Of a stretch of 62,934 nt of DNA, positions 5,643 to 57,593 are shown piece by piece. Positions within the stretch are counted from its first letter, which is position 1. Each line of letters starts with the position of its first letter. The stretch comes from a virus. The translations under genes were made by a program, and so were the position numbers. Under the pieces are notes generated by a model. It had not been told where the DNA came from. It saw only the letters and a program-made list of their open reading frames with translations, and did not search any database. The stretch lies in IMG/VR virus record IMGVR_UViG_3300037189_005381, positions 1 through 62,934 of that record; one strand, given 5' to 3'.

Positions 5643-8036
5643 TTACGCTGGTATTGATCTCATAACAGATTGAGTCAACGATTCTAATTTGTCAATAACT
5701 CTTGTGGTATTTTCATTATCGTTCTGAATTAATCTAGCAAGCATGTCAGAGTCTGTTCCTAATGTAGCCACTTGTGTTCTGCTATTATTTAACTGATTTT
5801 GTGATGCTTCCTGAGCAGAAGTGGATACTTGCACAGGTCTTTCAGCAGTATTGGTAGTAGGAGTGGCAGCTCTAGGTTGTACCACCGCACTCGTTTCTGG
5901 TCTTGGAGCGGATGCGGTTGGTGCAGGAGGTGCCGGTGGTGGATTTTTAATTTTTGAAGCCACTTGTGCAAATTTATCTGCGGCCTCAGTTGACATAAAT
6001 TCAACTCCAACTTTACCAGTAGTACCATCATACTGACTAGACAACTTAAAATCAGTTCCTTCTTTTAAGTTAGCCTGTGCCATTAAGTTTTTAATCTGGT
6101 CAACTTCTCTAGATACTTCTTGACCTTTATTAATCTTGTAATCAAATTTTACACCACCACGAAGTTTTTCAGTATCTGGAAGAGTGCTATTGGTTCTTTG
6201 AACACCTTCAATAGCTCCTAACAATGCATTAGCCGCAGGTCCTAATGCTTGTCTTGCAGGAGCTCCTGCGTTTGCCGCTGGTGCAGACTGTGCAGATGCT
6301 TGTTGTGCGTTGCCATTATTTGGCGTTTGTGGAGAGCCTTGTGCTTGGGATCCATTTCTTGATTGATTTTGATTACCACTTTGTGTATTAGTACCGCCTG
6401 TCAATTCGTTAAACTTATTCACAGCACGATCAATTATCTTGTCAATTCCTTCACTGCTTGTTTTACTAAACTCGCGTATTTCTTTTGTTGCTGATATATT
6501 CAACTCTTTTAATCTTGTAACAGCATCTATATTACTTTTTAAAAATGCGTCATCCCCTAATTTTCCTATACCTTTTGCAATTTCTCCAACAGCTGAAGTA
6601 ATAATTTGTGAACTGAGAGCAACTCCTAAACCAAATGTGTTTAATACTTTATTTGCTTCACCCATGCTAACAGCTATTCTAATATTTTCTCTTTGAAATG
6701 TGCCTAATGCATCTAAATTCTTACCTTGCTGACTTGTCAAACTGTTTGTGGAATCTTCTAATCTTTTCTGAACAGCTGGCATATCGCCAAACATTTGCTG
6801 TAAGTTTAACAATGCATTGGCAGCAATACCAGGAGCGCCAGCATTATCTAAAAATCCTTGTGCTAAATCATTTGACTGACTTTCTATCCTTGCGAACGTA
6901 GGACCTAAATCAACTTGTTTGATAGCATCCATTACTGGCACACCTTTGGCCACTGCTGCCGATAGAGCTTTCATTTTTTGCATTAGGTCAGGAGCCATGC
7001 CAGCAAGCACGGCACTTTGTTCATCAAAACGCCCTGTGTAAGCCGCAATGGTTGCTCGCATGCCTTTTTGTGCATCTCCGCCAAACATGCCAGTCATTAG
7101 AGATAGCATCTGTTGCTTACCTTCTTCTCTAATGTTATTAAAGATTGTTCTATTGCGAGCATCTTGCAATGCTTCGTTGGCAGCTTTCATAATGACTTCT
7201 CTGTTGAAGCCAAATGCATCTCCCAATTGAGTTACAGTTTTTGTAGTCTGCAACATCTTGTCATTAAACATGGAACCATAAGTCTGTTGTGCTTTAGTCA
7301 AACCACCAAACAACATGGAATTTTGTAATATAACTTTTCCGTAATCATTTGCTCCAATGCCTAATCGCATGAATTGATCGTTGAATGCTTCACCGCTATC
7401 ACGCATACTTTGTGCAGATAGACGCAAATCTCTCATGCCATTTCTTGCACTAGTGCCGTTTAATCGTAAATTAAGGAAGTTTTCTTCCATTAATCCAGCG
7501 TACTCTTGCATAGTAACGCCTAGTGTACTAGCATTAATTCTTAGATTGTCAAAGTCCCCTGCAACTACCCCGCCAATATTGCTCAGTCGCTTGTAAACAT
7601 CAAATTGTTCTTCTAATTGACCAATCCCTTCAGCGGCAAACTTGTAAATGGCACTAGTAGCTCCAGTAGTGCGTGATCCTAATATGCGCAAGTTGTTAGT
7701 TTGATCTCTTATGGCTCCACTAGAAGTTCTAATTTGTTGCGACACTCCTTCAAATCCACCAGTTAGATCAGTTAAAATACTGCCTAATACTTTGCCAGCA
7801 CCAGTAATAACTCCAACAACACCGCTAAATTTAGACACGGCTCCGCCAAGCACTCCTAGTTTTCCGCTAGTATCTTTGGAAGCATCACCAATTGCTCCAA
7901 AGAATCCACCCACACTCTTAGAGTCTATTTTAGCTATTTTTTGCAAGGTCAGCAATAGTTCACGCTGTGTTTCTTCCAGCGCCATACCACGCAGTCTAAT
8001 ACTTTCGCTTCCCAGTGTACCAGTTACTTCAGACAT
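5643..8036 (-). CDS. Probable tail tape measure protein
   Basis: A 797-residue protein with the character of a tape measure, the ruler for tail length that fills the tail tube. It is long and mostly helical. It has a Gly/Ala/Val-rich hydrophobic patch near residues 45-95 (GVLGGAVSKFSGVVGVITGAG), heptad-like helices through residues 100-540, and a low-complexity Gln/Asn/Pro/Ala linker at about 555-600 and again near 700-740. In T4 the tape measure (gp29) lies with the hub genes; here this gene follows the head cluster, opposite the gp26/gp51 pair. Nothing else in the window is a better tape measure. Alternative: another large tail or internal head protein. A late promoter (GATAAATA) lies 44 bases upstream. 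Confidence 0.62.
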   Translation of the reverse strand: MSEVTGTLGSESIRLRGMALEETQRELLLTLQKIAKIDSKSVGGFFGAIGDASKDTSGKLGVLGGAVSKFSGVVGVITGAGKVLGSILTDLTGGFEGVSQQIRTSSGAIRDQTNNLRILGSRTTGATSAIYKFAAEGIGQLEEQFDVYKRLSNIGGVVAGDFDNLRINASTLGVTMQEYAGLMEENFLNLRLNGTSARNGMRDLRLSAQSMRDSGEAFNDQFMRLGIGANDYGKVILQNSMLFGGLTKAQQTYGSMFNDKMLQTTKTVTQLGDAFGFNREVIMKAANEALQDARNRTIFNNIREEGKQQMLSLMTGMFGGDAQKGMRATIAAYTGRFDEQSAVLAGMAPDLMQKMKALSAAVAKGVPVMDAIKQVDLGPTFARIESQSNDLAQGFLDNAGAPGIAANALLNLQQMFGDMPAVQKRLEDSTNSLTSQQGKNLDALGTFQRENIRIAVSMGEANKVLNTFGLGVALSSQIITSAVGEIAKGIGKLGDDAFLKSNIDAVTRLKELNISATKEIREFSKTSSEGIDKIIDRAVNKFNELTGGTNTQSGNQNQSRNGSQAQGSPQTPNNGNAQQASAQSAPAANAGAPARQALGPAANALLGAIEGVQRTNSTLPDTEKLRGGVKFDYKINKGQEVSREVDQIKNLMAQANLKEGTDFKLSSQYDGTTGKVGVEFMSTEAADKFAQVASKIKNPPPAPPAPTASAPRPETSAVVQPRAATPTTNTAERPVQVSTSAQEASQNQLNNSRTQVATLGTDSDMLARLIQNDNENTTRVIDKLESLTQSVMRSIPA

Positions 8037-8060: not shown

Positions 8061-8068
8061 TATAAATA
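8061..8068 (+). promoter_or_regulatory. T4-type late promoter for gp26
   Basis: TATAAATA, an exact match to the T4 late promoter -10 element, 30 bases before the gp26 ATG. The expected start near 8075 leaves a short leader containing CGGAG (8087-8091) as ribosome site. Confidence 0.75.
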
Positions 8069-8087: not shown

Positions 8088-8098
8088 GGAGTTAAAAA

Positions 8099-8962
8099 AT
8101 GGAAAGTCCACGTAAAAATCCCCTGTCTTCTTTTATGAGAAGACCCAAACTATTTCTTAAATTGCCCAGCCAAGGACGCTTTTGGCCTGAAGGCAGTTTA
8201 GAAATACCAGCTAACGGAGAGTTCCCTGTATATGGACTGACCGTTAAAGACGAGCTGTTGATCAGAACTCCAGATGCATTGTTCAACGGACGTACCACTG
8301 TGGACGTGATTAAAAGCTGTGTGCCAAATATTTTAGATCCTTGGAAGTGTCCAAGTTTAGATTTAGATGCAATATTAATTGCCATACGCATTGCCACATA
8401 CGGCGAAAAAATGACCATGGATGTGAGTATTCCAGGCACCAATGAAAAAGAACCTTTTGAAATTGACTTGAGACCGTTGTTAGATCAAATTGTGGAAAAT
8501 ACCTTTTGGGAAGAAGAAGTCAAAGTCAACAACGATATGACCATATACATTGAGCCAGTGACCTACAAGGTATTAACTGACTATAGCCTACTAAGTTTTG
8601 ACAGTAATCGTGTGCTACAAGCCATTATACAAAACGAAGATCTCAGTGAAGAACAGCGTATTGACATGGCAGCAAACGCCATGGGACGTCTAGCAGATGC
8701 TACTCTCATGCAGATGTTAAACGGAATTAAGCGTATTGACACTACAGAAGGCAACACCACTGACCCATTACAAATTAAAGAGTTTTTAGAAAATTGTGAT
8801 AAAGAGTTTTTTGATGTAGTGGCTAAAGCATTTAGAGAACTTAACGATAGGAACAACAAACGCTTCATGACCATACAGACTCCACAGCAGTATGTGGATC
8901 AAGGAGCTCCCGCACAGATGGAAGTGCCCTTTGAGTTTGATTACTCAAATTTTTTCGTCTAA
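8099..8962 (+). CDS. gp26: Baseplate hub protein gp26
   Basis: A 287-residue member of the T4 gp26 baseplate family, needed for hub assembly. The diagnostic N-terminal motif is FLKLPSQGRFWPEG (about residues 19-32), followed by YGLTVKDELLIRTPDALFNG and a helical C-terminal half. T4 gp26 is about 208 residues. The ATG at 8099 is preceded by CGGAGTTAAAAA. Near its end, codons AAT TTT TTC form two overlapping -1 slippery heptamers; a shift would fuse it to the next gene, giving about 362 residues. It is transcribed away from the tape measure gene, with which it may work as a tail assembly chaperone. Confidence 0.85.
   Translation: MESPRKNPLSSFMRRPKLFLKLPSQGRFWPEGSLEIPANGEFPVYGLTVKDELLIRTPDALFNGRTTVDVIKSCVPNILDPWKCPSLDLDAILIAIRIATYGEKMTMDVSIPGTNEKEPFEIDLRPLLDQIVENTFWEEEVKVNNDMTIYIEPVTYKVLTDYSLLSFDSNRVLQAIIQNEDLSEEQRIDMAANAMGRLADATLMQMLNGIKRIDTTEGNTTDPLQIKEFLENCDKEFFDVVAKAFRELNDRNNKRFMTIQTPQQYVDQGAPAQMEVPFEFDYSNFFV
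8947..8956 (+). promoter_or_regulatory. Probable -1 programmed ribosomal frameshift site
   Basis: The bases AAATTTTTTC in the gp26 frame read (tc)A AAT TTT TTC, giving two X-XXY-YYZ heptamers, A-AAT-TTT and T-TTT-TTC. The -1 frame is open through the site and continues without a stop to 9186. A weak stem (AGGC/GCCT enclosing TTTT/AAAA, 8962-8985) begins 5 bases downstream. The downstream gene otherwise has only a TTG start with a cramped ribosome site. Confidence 0.6.
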
Positions 8963-8967
8963 GGCTT

Positions 8968-9186
8968 TTGTCTAAAACTCTGCCTGAAATTGTTGAGATA
9001 TCAGCAGGACTCGACAAAGAAGCAAAAGCCATCGAAAAAGACACATTCAGGTTAGCATGGTACATGCGTGGAGGCCTTACCACTGATGAGGCATTTCAGT
9101 TGACCTACGAGCAAAAACAAGCTATCAATGAAATCGTAAAAGAAAATATGGAATGGACTAAAGATTCCGGTATGCCTTTAATCTGA
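8968..9186 (+). CDS. gp51-like hub assembly protein, probably made as a gp26 fusion
   Basis: As a separate gene it would be 72 residues from a TTG at 8968, with AAGG only 3 bases upstream, which is a poor start. As a frameshift extension of gp26 it adds about 76 residues. The sequence has a conserved-looking core, FRLAWYMRGGLTTDEAFQL, then TYEQKQAINEIVKEN, all helical. In T4 gene 51 directly follows gene 26 and encodes a hub assembly factor not found in the virion; position and size fit that. Siphophage and some myophage tail chaperones use the same short-plus-extended arrangement. The gp51 name is inferred from position. Confidence 0.6.
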   Translation: MSKTLPEIVEISAGLDKEAKAIEKDTFRLAWYMRGGLTTDEAFQLTYEQKQAINEIVKENMEWTKDSGMPLI

Positions 9187-9230: not shown

Positions 9231-9248
9231 AGTGAGCTAACGCTCACT
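9231..9248. terminator. Perfect 7-bp hairpin after gp51-like gene
   Basis: AGTGAGC-TAAC-GCTCACT lies 45 bases past the stop at 9186. It is followed by TGTTCGTTATTT, only loosely T-rich, so termination is possible but not certain. Confidence 0.45.
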
Positions 9249-9345: not shown

Positions 9346-9369
9346 CACTTCGCCCTGGCGGGCGAAGTG
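9346..9369. terminator. Strong 10-bp GC-rich hairpin, likely bidirectional terminator
   Basis: CACTTCGCCC-TGGC-GGGCGAAGTG is a perfect 10-bp stem with a tetraloop, the strongest hairpin in the window. It lies between two converging transcription units. No long T-run follows on either strand, so it might instead belong to a structured RNA. Confidence 0.55.
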
Positions 9370-56636: not shown

Positions 56637-57542
56637 TTAAGTCCCCCATGCATTACCAAACAAGTCTACGTGCAATCTTGGACTAAATCTAAAACCTTTT
56701 TGTAAACATAGTTCTGCAACTTGACGTGCAGTTTTAGCTTGTCCTTCTTGCGTAGCACCACAAGGCATCAAATAAACATCACAAAAAATTTCTTTTTCTT
56801 TATACAGTTCAATGGCCTTTTCAACTTCTAAAACATCTTGTTCATCAGTTACAACAAATTTAAAATAAAAGTTCCTACCAGGTAATCCATAGTATTGAGC
56901 CGCTACTTCTGGCTTAATTGCTTCGTCCCATGCCTCTCCAGAACTAGTCAATTTAGGACTGCAACTCCAAGTAAACTTAACAAAGTAATTTGGATCTCGA
57001 GTAGGACCAAAACCAAGATCCAGCATCATTTGGATAAATTCTTGTTTTAGTTCATGTGTTGTATTTGTTTCAAATGTTACATTTTTAATGTCTTTAAATT
57101 GCGGTTGTTTTAATAAAGCCGCCAATTGCTTTTGCCACATTAAAGGCTCACCGCCAGTAATAACAAGATGTACATCCTGACCGTTATCACATGTCCATTT
57201 TCCTTCTGGAGTCATTGCAGTTAGCTTGTCAGCAATAACATCTACGGTATCCCAAGTAGCCAAGTGTTTATATTTTGCACTCCAGCTGGCACTAGTATCG
57301 CACCCAATATTACTAACTGGCAGTTCTTCAAAACTCTTATATGCTTCTGGATGATCAGGATTGGCTCTAGGATCATTGTTGTGTGGCATTTGTTCAATAG
57401 GTATAAAGTTACCTCTTTCTTGTCCAAAACCGCGACATTCAAAGTTGCAACCAAACGTTCTAAAGAAAACACTGGGCACTCCTACAAAGCGACCTTCGCC
57501 TTGTACGCTATAAAACATTTCACTGTATCTAATTTTTTCCAT
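56637..57542 (-). CDS. queE: QueE-like radical SAM enzyme (7-carboxy-7-deazaguanine synthase)
   Basis: A 301-residue protein starting at ATG 57542, just downstream of a consensus promoter; in-frame ATGs further up lie at or before the transcript start. The N-terminus EMFYSVQGEGRFVGVPSVFF and FRTFGCNFEC match QueE. The iron-sulfur cysteines appear as C32, C36 and, after a 44-residue insert, C81 in NIGCDTSASW, a split version of the usual cluster motif. VHLVITGGEPLMW is the SAM-binding GGEP. QueE makes CDG on the way to preQ0, used for tRNA queuosine or for 7-deazaguanine in phage DNA. FolE, which makes the first precursor, is also in the window. Confidence 0.85.
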   Translation of the reverse strand: MEKIRYSEMFYSVQGEGRFVGVPSVFFRTFGCNFECRGFGQERGNFIPIEQMPHNNDPRANPDHPEAYKSFEELPVSNIGCDTSASWSAKYKHLATWDTVDVIADKLTAMTPEGKWTCDNGQDVHLVITGGEPLMWQKQLAALLKQPQFKDIKNVTFETNTTHELKQEFIQMMLDLGFGPTRDPNYFVKFTWSCSPKLTSSGEAWDEAIKPEVAAQYYGLPGRNFYFKFVVTDEQDVLEVEKAIELYKEKEIFCDVYLMPCGATQEGQAKTARQVAELCLQKGFRFSPRLHVDLFGNAWGT

Positions 57543-57564
57543 ATGTGATTCCAATTTATACTTC

Positions 57565-57593
57565 ATTATACTATTATTTAGGTTGTTTGTCAA
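57565..57593 (-). promoter_or_regulatory. Perfect sigma70 promoter for queE, with CCTAAATAAT spacer motif
   Basis: Minus strand TTGACA (57588-57593), 17 bases, TATAAT (57565-57570), exact consensus. The spacer contains CCTAAATAAT, also found in the folE promoter, and it includes a late-like TAAATA. It lies across the 3' end of the upstream gene. Confidence 0.85.

Follow-up and report, generated by a model that had tools for sequence, protein, structure and literature searches.

The gp26 gene of the viral genome IMGVR_UViG_3300037189_005381 (IMG/VR; positions 1 to 62,934, the 62,934-nucleotide stretch of DNA referred to here as the window) ends in a run of Ts across which an open reading frame continues in the -1 register. 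The question raised by this locus is whether ribosomes shift frame at the run to append a gp51-like extension to gp26, or whether the extension is expressed in some other manner. A first reading made from the letters of the DNA (hereafter the sequence-only reading) had proposed a programmed -1 frameshift, and comparison with related phages supports that proposal. It is very likely that such a shift at T_TTT_TTC, assisted by a downstream RNA stem, gives rise to short and long tail assembly chaperones. The comparative support consists of the in-frame heptamer, the conserved open -1 frame, the frequent lack of a start codon, a compensating stem, and homology to T4 gp26 and gp51; actual ribosomal shifting, its frequency and the chaperone role are what we infer.

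Results

gp26 and its relatives

The zero-frame product matches PF12322 with an E-value of 4.8e-7 and 30.1 bits against a curated cut-off of 24.5, which places it in the T4_baseplate family, and it also matches phrog_150 (baseplate hub; E 1.5e-10). The GGAG upstream of the gene lies at 8088-8091, 7 nt from the ATG (Table 1). A tblastn search with gp26 returned 59 phage records, each at less than 60% identity and the majority from jumbo T4-like phages, including Phosso, Atu_ph07, PA5oct, RaK2, 121Q, CBB, GAP32 and SCTP-2. The closest kin in the phage collection are jumbo T4-like phages rather than the ordinary marine T4-like phages that had been proposed for comparison. Two Cys pairs resembling a zinc ribbon (gp26 residues 111-114 and 261-270) occur in at least 90% of aligned relatives and are lost in the window protein.

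Table 1 Positions of features at the gp26 locus, numbered along the window
Feature	Position	Strand	Remarks
Tape-measure-like protein	5643..8036	-	797 aa; divergent, adjacent to gp26
Candidate promoter element TATAAATA	8061..8068	+	Taken by us to resemble a T4-type late promoter element; weak (2 matches in the window vs 7.3 expected by chance)
gp26, short product	8099..8962	+	287 aa; T4_baseplate family, PF12322, phrog_150; GGAG upstream
A_AAT_TTT, overlapping the heptamer below	8947..8953	+	Present, not conserved
Slippery heptamer T_TTT_TTC, proposed -1 shift site	8950..8956	+	In frame, conserved
-1 frame extension, gp51-like	8950..9186	+	78 aa from FF; 76 aa past gp26 F286; TGA at 9184-9186
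Zero-frame stop TAA	8960..8962	+	One codon past heptamer; same distance in 41/52 clusters
Downstream stem, 5' arm GGCTTTTG	8963..8970	+	Covers the only TTG start
Downstream stem, 3' arm CAAAAGCC	9023..9030	+	Pairs with 8963..8970

The slippery site and its conservation

The last codons of gp26 are AAT (8948), TTT (8951), TTC (8954) and GTC (8957), followed by TAA at 8960-8962. Both overlapping heptamers named by the sequence-only reading are present in frame, and of the two it is T_TTT_TTC that relatives keep. The candidate A_AAT_TTT was dropped as a shift site, given that the codon preceding TTT is variously GAT, AGT, AAT, CAT, TAT, CGT or GCT across heptamer-bearing clusters. From the site onwards the -1 frame is open through its TGA, such that a slip would join 286 residues to 76 and produce 362 residues in place of 287, as had been calculated.

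A lone heptamer proves little, since 5 of the 69 stop-to-stop ORFs of at least 100 aa in the window carry an in-frame slippery heptamer of some kind within their last 12 codons. Two of these five have a -1 extension of at least 50 aa, namely gp26 and an ORF at 57225-57548; the latter was discarded because it is antisense to a 318-aa ORF. That ORF (56637-57593, minus strand) contains the motifs CNFECRGFG and SVQGEG, and on their account resembles radical SAM enzymes of the QueE type, which act in 7-deazaguanine synthesis. The site in gp26 stands above chance because it is conserved in relatives. Of the uncut gp26 loci, which number 234, 218 have an in-frame T_TTT_TT(C/T/G) with an open -1 frame, as TTTTTTC in 202 cases, TTTTTTT in 14 and TTTTTTG in two, so that the predicted conservation of the slippery run among kin was borne out. 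The 234 loci derive from 243 sequences, 237 of which had a gp26 ORF; the six without one and three that were cut were excluded, and some records were counted more than once in the heptamer surveys. The heptamer was likewise present at 17/17 of the first loci, including RaK2, PA5oct and Atu_ph07 (five of the 17 are near-identical, and a further locus cut by a contig end was excluded), and at 82/82 loci of the P-SSM2/KVP40 type, which are mostly close kin. The gp26 gene of SCTP-2 was missed by the profile, and the gene matched by tblastn carries the heptamer. The 16 exceptions come from T4 (three), Acinetobacter phage PhT2 (three), RB43 (three), three Ackermannviridae (six) and one locus that has an internal stop with the T run intact. 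All five -1 extensions shorter than 50 aa run off a contig end.

Grouping the heptamer-bearing loci at 70% identity gives 52 clusters, and grouping them at 50% gives 20 lineages; from each gene's own codon use the heptamer would be expected in 19.9 of the former and 5.6-5.7 of the latter. All members of these sets bear the heptamer by construction, and heptamer-less lineages were therefore added back at the mean chance. With the three Ackermannviridae, 20 of 23 lineages carry the heptamer (P 1.6e-10), and with T4, RB43 and PhT2 as well, 20 of 26 (P 3.9e-8), both P values treating lineages as unrelated. Judged by this comparison, T_TTT_TT is kept beyond codon choice and coding need, as a frameshift signal would be. 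Rhizobium I1_9 retains the six Ts although the residues encoded are Phe-Leu rather than Phe-Phe. T4 gp26 keeps Phe-Phe, but codes it as TTC TTT. Among further T4-type loci, four are without any T6, a fifth has T6 with a -1 frame that closes at once, and a sixth is cut.

The -1 frame extension

Across 27/27 aligned rows of the window, L018 and 121Q types, the extension does not vary at F1, F2, R3, L6 and L7, and R3 and L6 are kept at 90% or more in a broader alignment of 28 rows that extends to PA5oct and XacN1. The baseplate hub assembly catalyst family phrog_634 is matched by 4/4 non-jumbo extensions (P-SSM2, S-N03, Desulfovibrio 7757 and Rhizobium I1_9), with E-values from 4.5e-11 to 2.1e-29. 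No phrog_634 match was obtained with the extensions of the window, L018, CBB or SCTP-2, and the window extension on its own had no significant PHROG match. Profile alignment with hhalign bridges the jumbo extensions to the non-jumbo extensions and the T4 gp51 C-terminus (probability 60%, E 8.6e-5), and the label "gp51-like" given to the extension probably holds. The AlphaFold model of the extension is all-helical with a pLDDT of 86.5; its best structural row, 2kmu (Z 5.6), was not accepted as related. Because codon positions are nearly even over extension codons 5-10 (0.31/0.32/0.375), the codon-position test does not back coding in that part; an excess at the third position is seen over codons 11-40 and 41-78.

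The gap that follows the extension holds a perfect 10-bp hairpin at 9346-9369 (CACTTCGCCC/GGGCGAAGTG). A further hairpin at 9231-9248 may be the terminator of the gp26 operon.

Candidate RNA stimulators

Stimulatory structures for -1 frameshifting usually lie about 5-9 nt downstream of the heptamer. In the window, 8963-8970 and 9023-9030 form a perfect 8-bp pairing after a 6-nt spacer, with a fold z of -2.57 over a 70-nt stretch and -1.76 over a 79-nt stretch (10 of 200 shuffles as good). The sequence-only reading had noted a weak stem starting five bases past the site; the stem is there, starting 6 nt past and stronger than that description. Over the 52 clusters, the 70 nt starting 4 nt past the heptamer have a mean fold z of -1.99, with 24 clusters below -2. 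Within the window clade (seven sequences) the 8-bp stem is paired in 56/56 cells, and two pairs are changed on both sides.

The clade of L018 (51 sequences) has a 13-pair helix in which 84.6% of cells are paired vs 40-58% when slid; it shows 38 double changes vs 18.5 in shuffled data, with 0/500 shuffles as high, and RNAalifold recovers nine of the 13 pairs unguided. A hairpin in P-SSM2 relatives (40 distinct sequences) is 94% paired vs 27-50% slid, with little covariation. A single stem position shared by all was rejected: at the window stem columns, pairing is perfect in the window, L002, L012 and L017 among 32 cluster representatives with 78-aa extensions, and the L018 clade is not paired there, having its own stem with a different 3' arm. 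Codon constraints also act on the stem region because it codes for protein in the -1 frame. The 6-nt spacer and compensating changes are those expected of a downstream stimulatory structure.

An upstream Shine-Dalgarno (SD)-like stimulator, an optional feature, was not found in the window, where pairing reaches -2.2 kcal/mol and is no stronger than in the rest of gp26. SD-like pairing of -5 kcal/mol or stronger precedes the heptamer in 9/52 clusters, with GGAGG about 10 nt upstream in P-SSM2, S-N03 and Cr30 and weaker forms in six other clusters.

Alternative explanations

Expression of the extension as a separate gene, through termination-reinitiation at the TTG at 8968 with the T run merely coding for Phe-Phe, is improbable. 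An ATG does occur within the first 12 -1 codons in 17/52 clusters, and several of the heptamer-bearing records annotate the extension ORF as a separate gene. The case named beforehand as counterevidence, homologues with a clear ATG and ribosome site and no slippery run, was found in part in the Ackermannviridae, where the heptamer is absent in 3/3 records (L111, L112 and L113), the -1 ORF is still present, and an ATG overlaps the gp26-like stop in 2/3. The second ORF of these phages may use reinitiation; no Ackermannviridae relatives were found among viral contigs. Against reinitiation at the window's site stands the lack of any ATG, GTG or TTG in the first 12 -1 codons of 32/52 heptamer-bearing clusters, with GTG or TTG as the only such codons in another 3/52, the window included. 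The second gene of the window had been said to have no good start, and the same is frequent among its kin. The TTG at 8968-8970 is the only ATG, GTG or TTG among the first 25 codons of the window -1 frame; its anti-SD pairing is close to zero (-0.1 kcal/mol), it is buried in the downstream stem, and the invariant R3 and L6 lie upstream of it. The retention of T_TTT_TT beyond codon choice also argues against a purely coding run.

Transcriptional slippage, in which mRNAs in the -1 frame would arise from the T run, is less probable still. Such slippage is known on long T runs, and runs of six to eight Ts are seen here, but six Ts are short for it, and the compensating downstream stem points to shifting by ribosomes, as does the GGAGG that cyanophages carry about 10 nt upstream. 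Almost no weight can be given to gp26 being a single gene broken by sequencing error or decay. Two ORFs do overlap in different frames, as a broken gene would have it, but the identical junction occurs in 52 clusters from many studies, isolate genomes included, and the recurrence of the heptamer with an open -1 frame across surveys (17/17, 82/82 and 218/234) refutes this explanation.

The neighboring gene and the predicted fold of gp26

The tape-measure-like gene that had been described opposite gp26 is a 797-aa divergent gene, and a large divergent gene occupies the corresponding position in Phosso, PA5oct, 121Q, RaK2, CBB, XaC1, GAP32 and SCTP-2; in all of these but SCTP-2, a portal gene was recorded along with the large divergent structural or hypothetical gene beside gp26. 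Two observations count against the preferred explanation, the first lowering its probability slightly: no large divergent gene lies beside gp26 in three jumbo relatives (Atu_ph07, Vibrio 2.275.O and XacN1), and phrog_14121, to which the genes opposite gp26 in RaK2 and 121Q belong, carries the label head and packaging. The RaK2 counterpart is noted as similar to a tape measure. Tape measures scale with tail length at about 1.5 Å per residue. The large neighbors in PA5oct, 121Q, RaK2 and GAP32 (720-798 aa) roughly fit this scaling, given tails of 115-136 nm in the part of the source available (PMC3936114).

The AlphaFold model of gp26 (pLDDT 89.0) has as its best BFVD fold match a T4-like baseplate hub assembly protein (E 1.3e-19, TM 0.82). 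Alignment to the HK97 tail assembly chaperone (TAC; 2ob9) is partial, with Z 6.5, rmsd 3.6 and 88 of 107 residues aligned; 2ob9 ranks 34 among unrelated rows, with a Z no higher than that of unrelated helical chains. Foldseek returned no match between the model and PDB at E of 0.001 or below, and searching PDB sequences with the gp26 alignment gave a best E of 0.42. Other Foldseek matches in BFVD (TM 0.44-0.54 by query) are uncharacterised phage proteins of 507-686 aa from Ralstonia phages RSF1 and RP12, Erwinia phages Special G and phiEaH2, and Aeromonas phage PS1 (E above 0.001 for phiEaH2 and PS1). These could possibly be unrecognised tail chaperones.

A proposed duplication in T4-type phages

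T4 gp26 and gp51 each match PF12322 over the whole length of the profile, and gp51 has about 48 further residues that align with the extensions. The two, which are encoded by divergent genes, are paralogues that correspond to the short and long products. The heptamer is present in 19/22 phage records with one PF12322 gene (one of which, 2.275.O, is labelled a partial genome) and in 0/3 with two. In a tree of 24 rows, the genes from two-copy phages fall into a single clade (92/87, 94% of bootstraps) that neighbors KVP40 and Aeh1 and is nested among heptamer-bearing genes, the latter lying on both sides of the deepest split; the tree has long branches and a midpoint root, and it places the short copy of RB43 not with T4 gp26 but with the long copies. 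On this tree, long branches and midpoint root included, one duplication would have replaced the frameshift in T4-type phages. This suggests that T4 is a derived exception and that the shift site and RNA stem belong to its relatives and to jumbo phages.

Discussion

In the reading that we prefer, ribosomes would slip -1 at T_TTT_TTC, aided by the stem that starts 6 nt downstream, and besides gp26 itself, of 287 aa, a smaller amount of a 362-aa protein would be made in which gp26 is continued by the helical, gp51-like extension. Like lambda G and GT, the two forms would cover the tape measure protein and bring in proteins of the tube or the baseplate hub. A role as a G/GT-like tail chaperone pair is likely in view of T4 genetics, the tape-measure-like neighbor, which many though not all jumbo relatives have, and the partial fold likeness to the HK97 chaperone, and from the reading frames the two forms would share their N-terminus, as is typical of G and GT. 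The available portion of PMC3004832 counts T4 gp26 and gp51 among the chaperones of hub assembly, gp51 being required but absent from the particle and the presence of gp26 in the hub being disputed. The lambda virion contains neither G nor GT according to the portion of PMC5009743 available. PA5oct gp336 bears no ESI-MS/MS note, whereas gp334, gp335, gp343 and gp344 have one. Against the chaperone reading, the CBB record labels its gp26 a structural protein.

On balance, we lean towards the poly-U -1 frameshift being ancestral in the whole T4 superfamily, jumbo phages included, with its loss in T4-type phages after one duplication and with the stimulator exchanged between lineages (upstream SD-like sequence and hairpin in cyanophages; a differently placed stem and no SD in the jumbo clade).

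The title of Vladimirov 2022 (Virology) reportedly names chaperone genes of T4-like phages, which we presume to be gp26 and gp51. In its available text, PRFect (PMC10885494) cites that work for T4-like phages in which a short gene is accompanied by a long fused one, and the accessible part of the phage Adele paper (PMC12846349) credits it with poly-T shift signals in T4-like TAC genes; because of these citations, frameshifted T4-like chaperones are already known as a kind. Among the matches listed in the literature search, to the extent of their available text, none was found that deals with the frameshift in jumbo phages, with the RNA stems or with the order of duplication.

The short gp51 of cyanophages and vibriophages has been described as gp51 minus its first ~200 residues (Sullivan 2010, PMC3037559), and the word "frameshift" is absent from the main text of that paper in the portion available. 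What was called a short gp51 in P-SSM2 and KVP40 is the -1 extension that follows gp26. The same portion reports gp51 as missing in Aeh1 (PMC3037559), where we found it in the -1 frame after gp26, with TTTTTTC. The frameshift could account for the truncated look of cyanophage gp51 and for its seeming absence from Aeh1. Annotations need mending, since the two frames are left unjoined in 13/13 of the annotated heptamer-bearing phage records viewed.

The lambda heptamer and gene order differ from those of the window. No sequence similarity of the window genes to lambda G/GT or P2 E/E' was shown, and the window's tape-measure-like gene is divergent. What is shared is a short gene that acts with the tape measure and has a minor -1 extension close to its 3' end, as these systems are described in the available portion of Atkins 2016 (PMC5009743). 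The TAC gene of Vandenendeviridae and Andersonviridae, exemplified by phage Adele, also has a poly-T -1 shift at its end, a GTTTTT shift argued from conserved open -1 frames; it belongs to another phage group, and an RNA stem is unmentioned in the part of the paper available (PMC12846349). The G-T frameshift is described as widely conserved among long-tailed phages "except T4" in the available text of Atkins 2016 (PMC5009743). T4 and the window share the protein family, with gp26 as the short form and gp51, bearing an in-frame extension, as the long form; T4 uses divergent paralogous genes without a slippery site, whereas the window has one gene and a slippery site.
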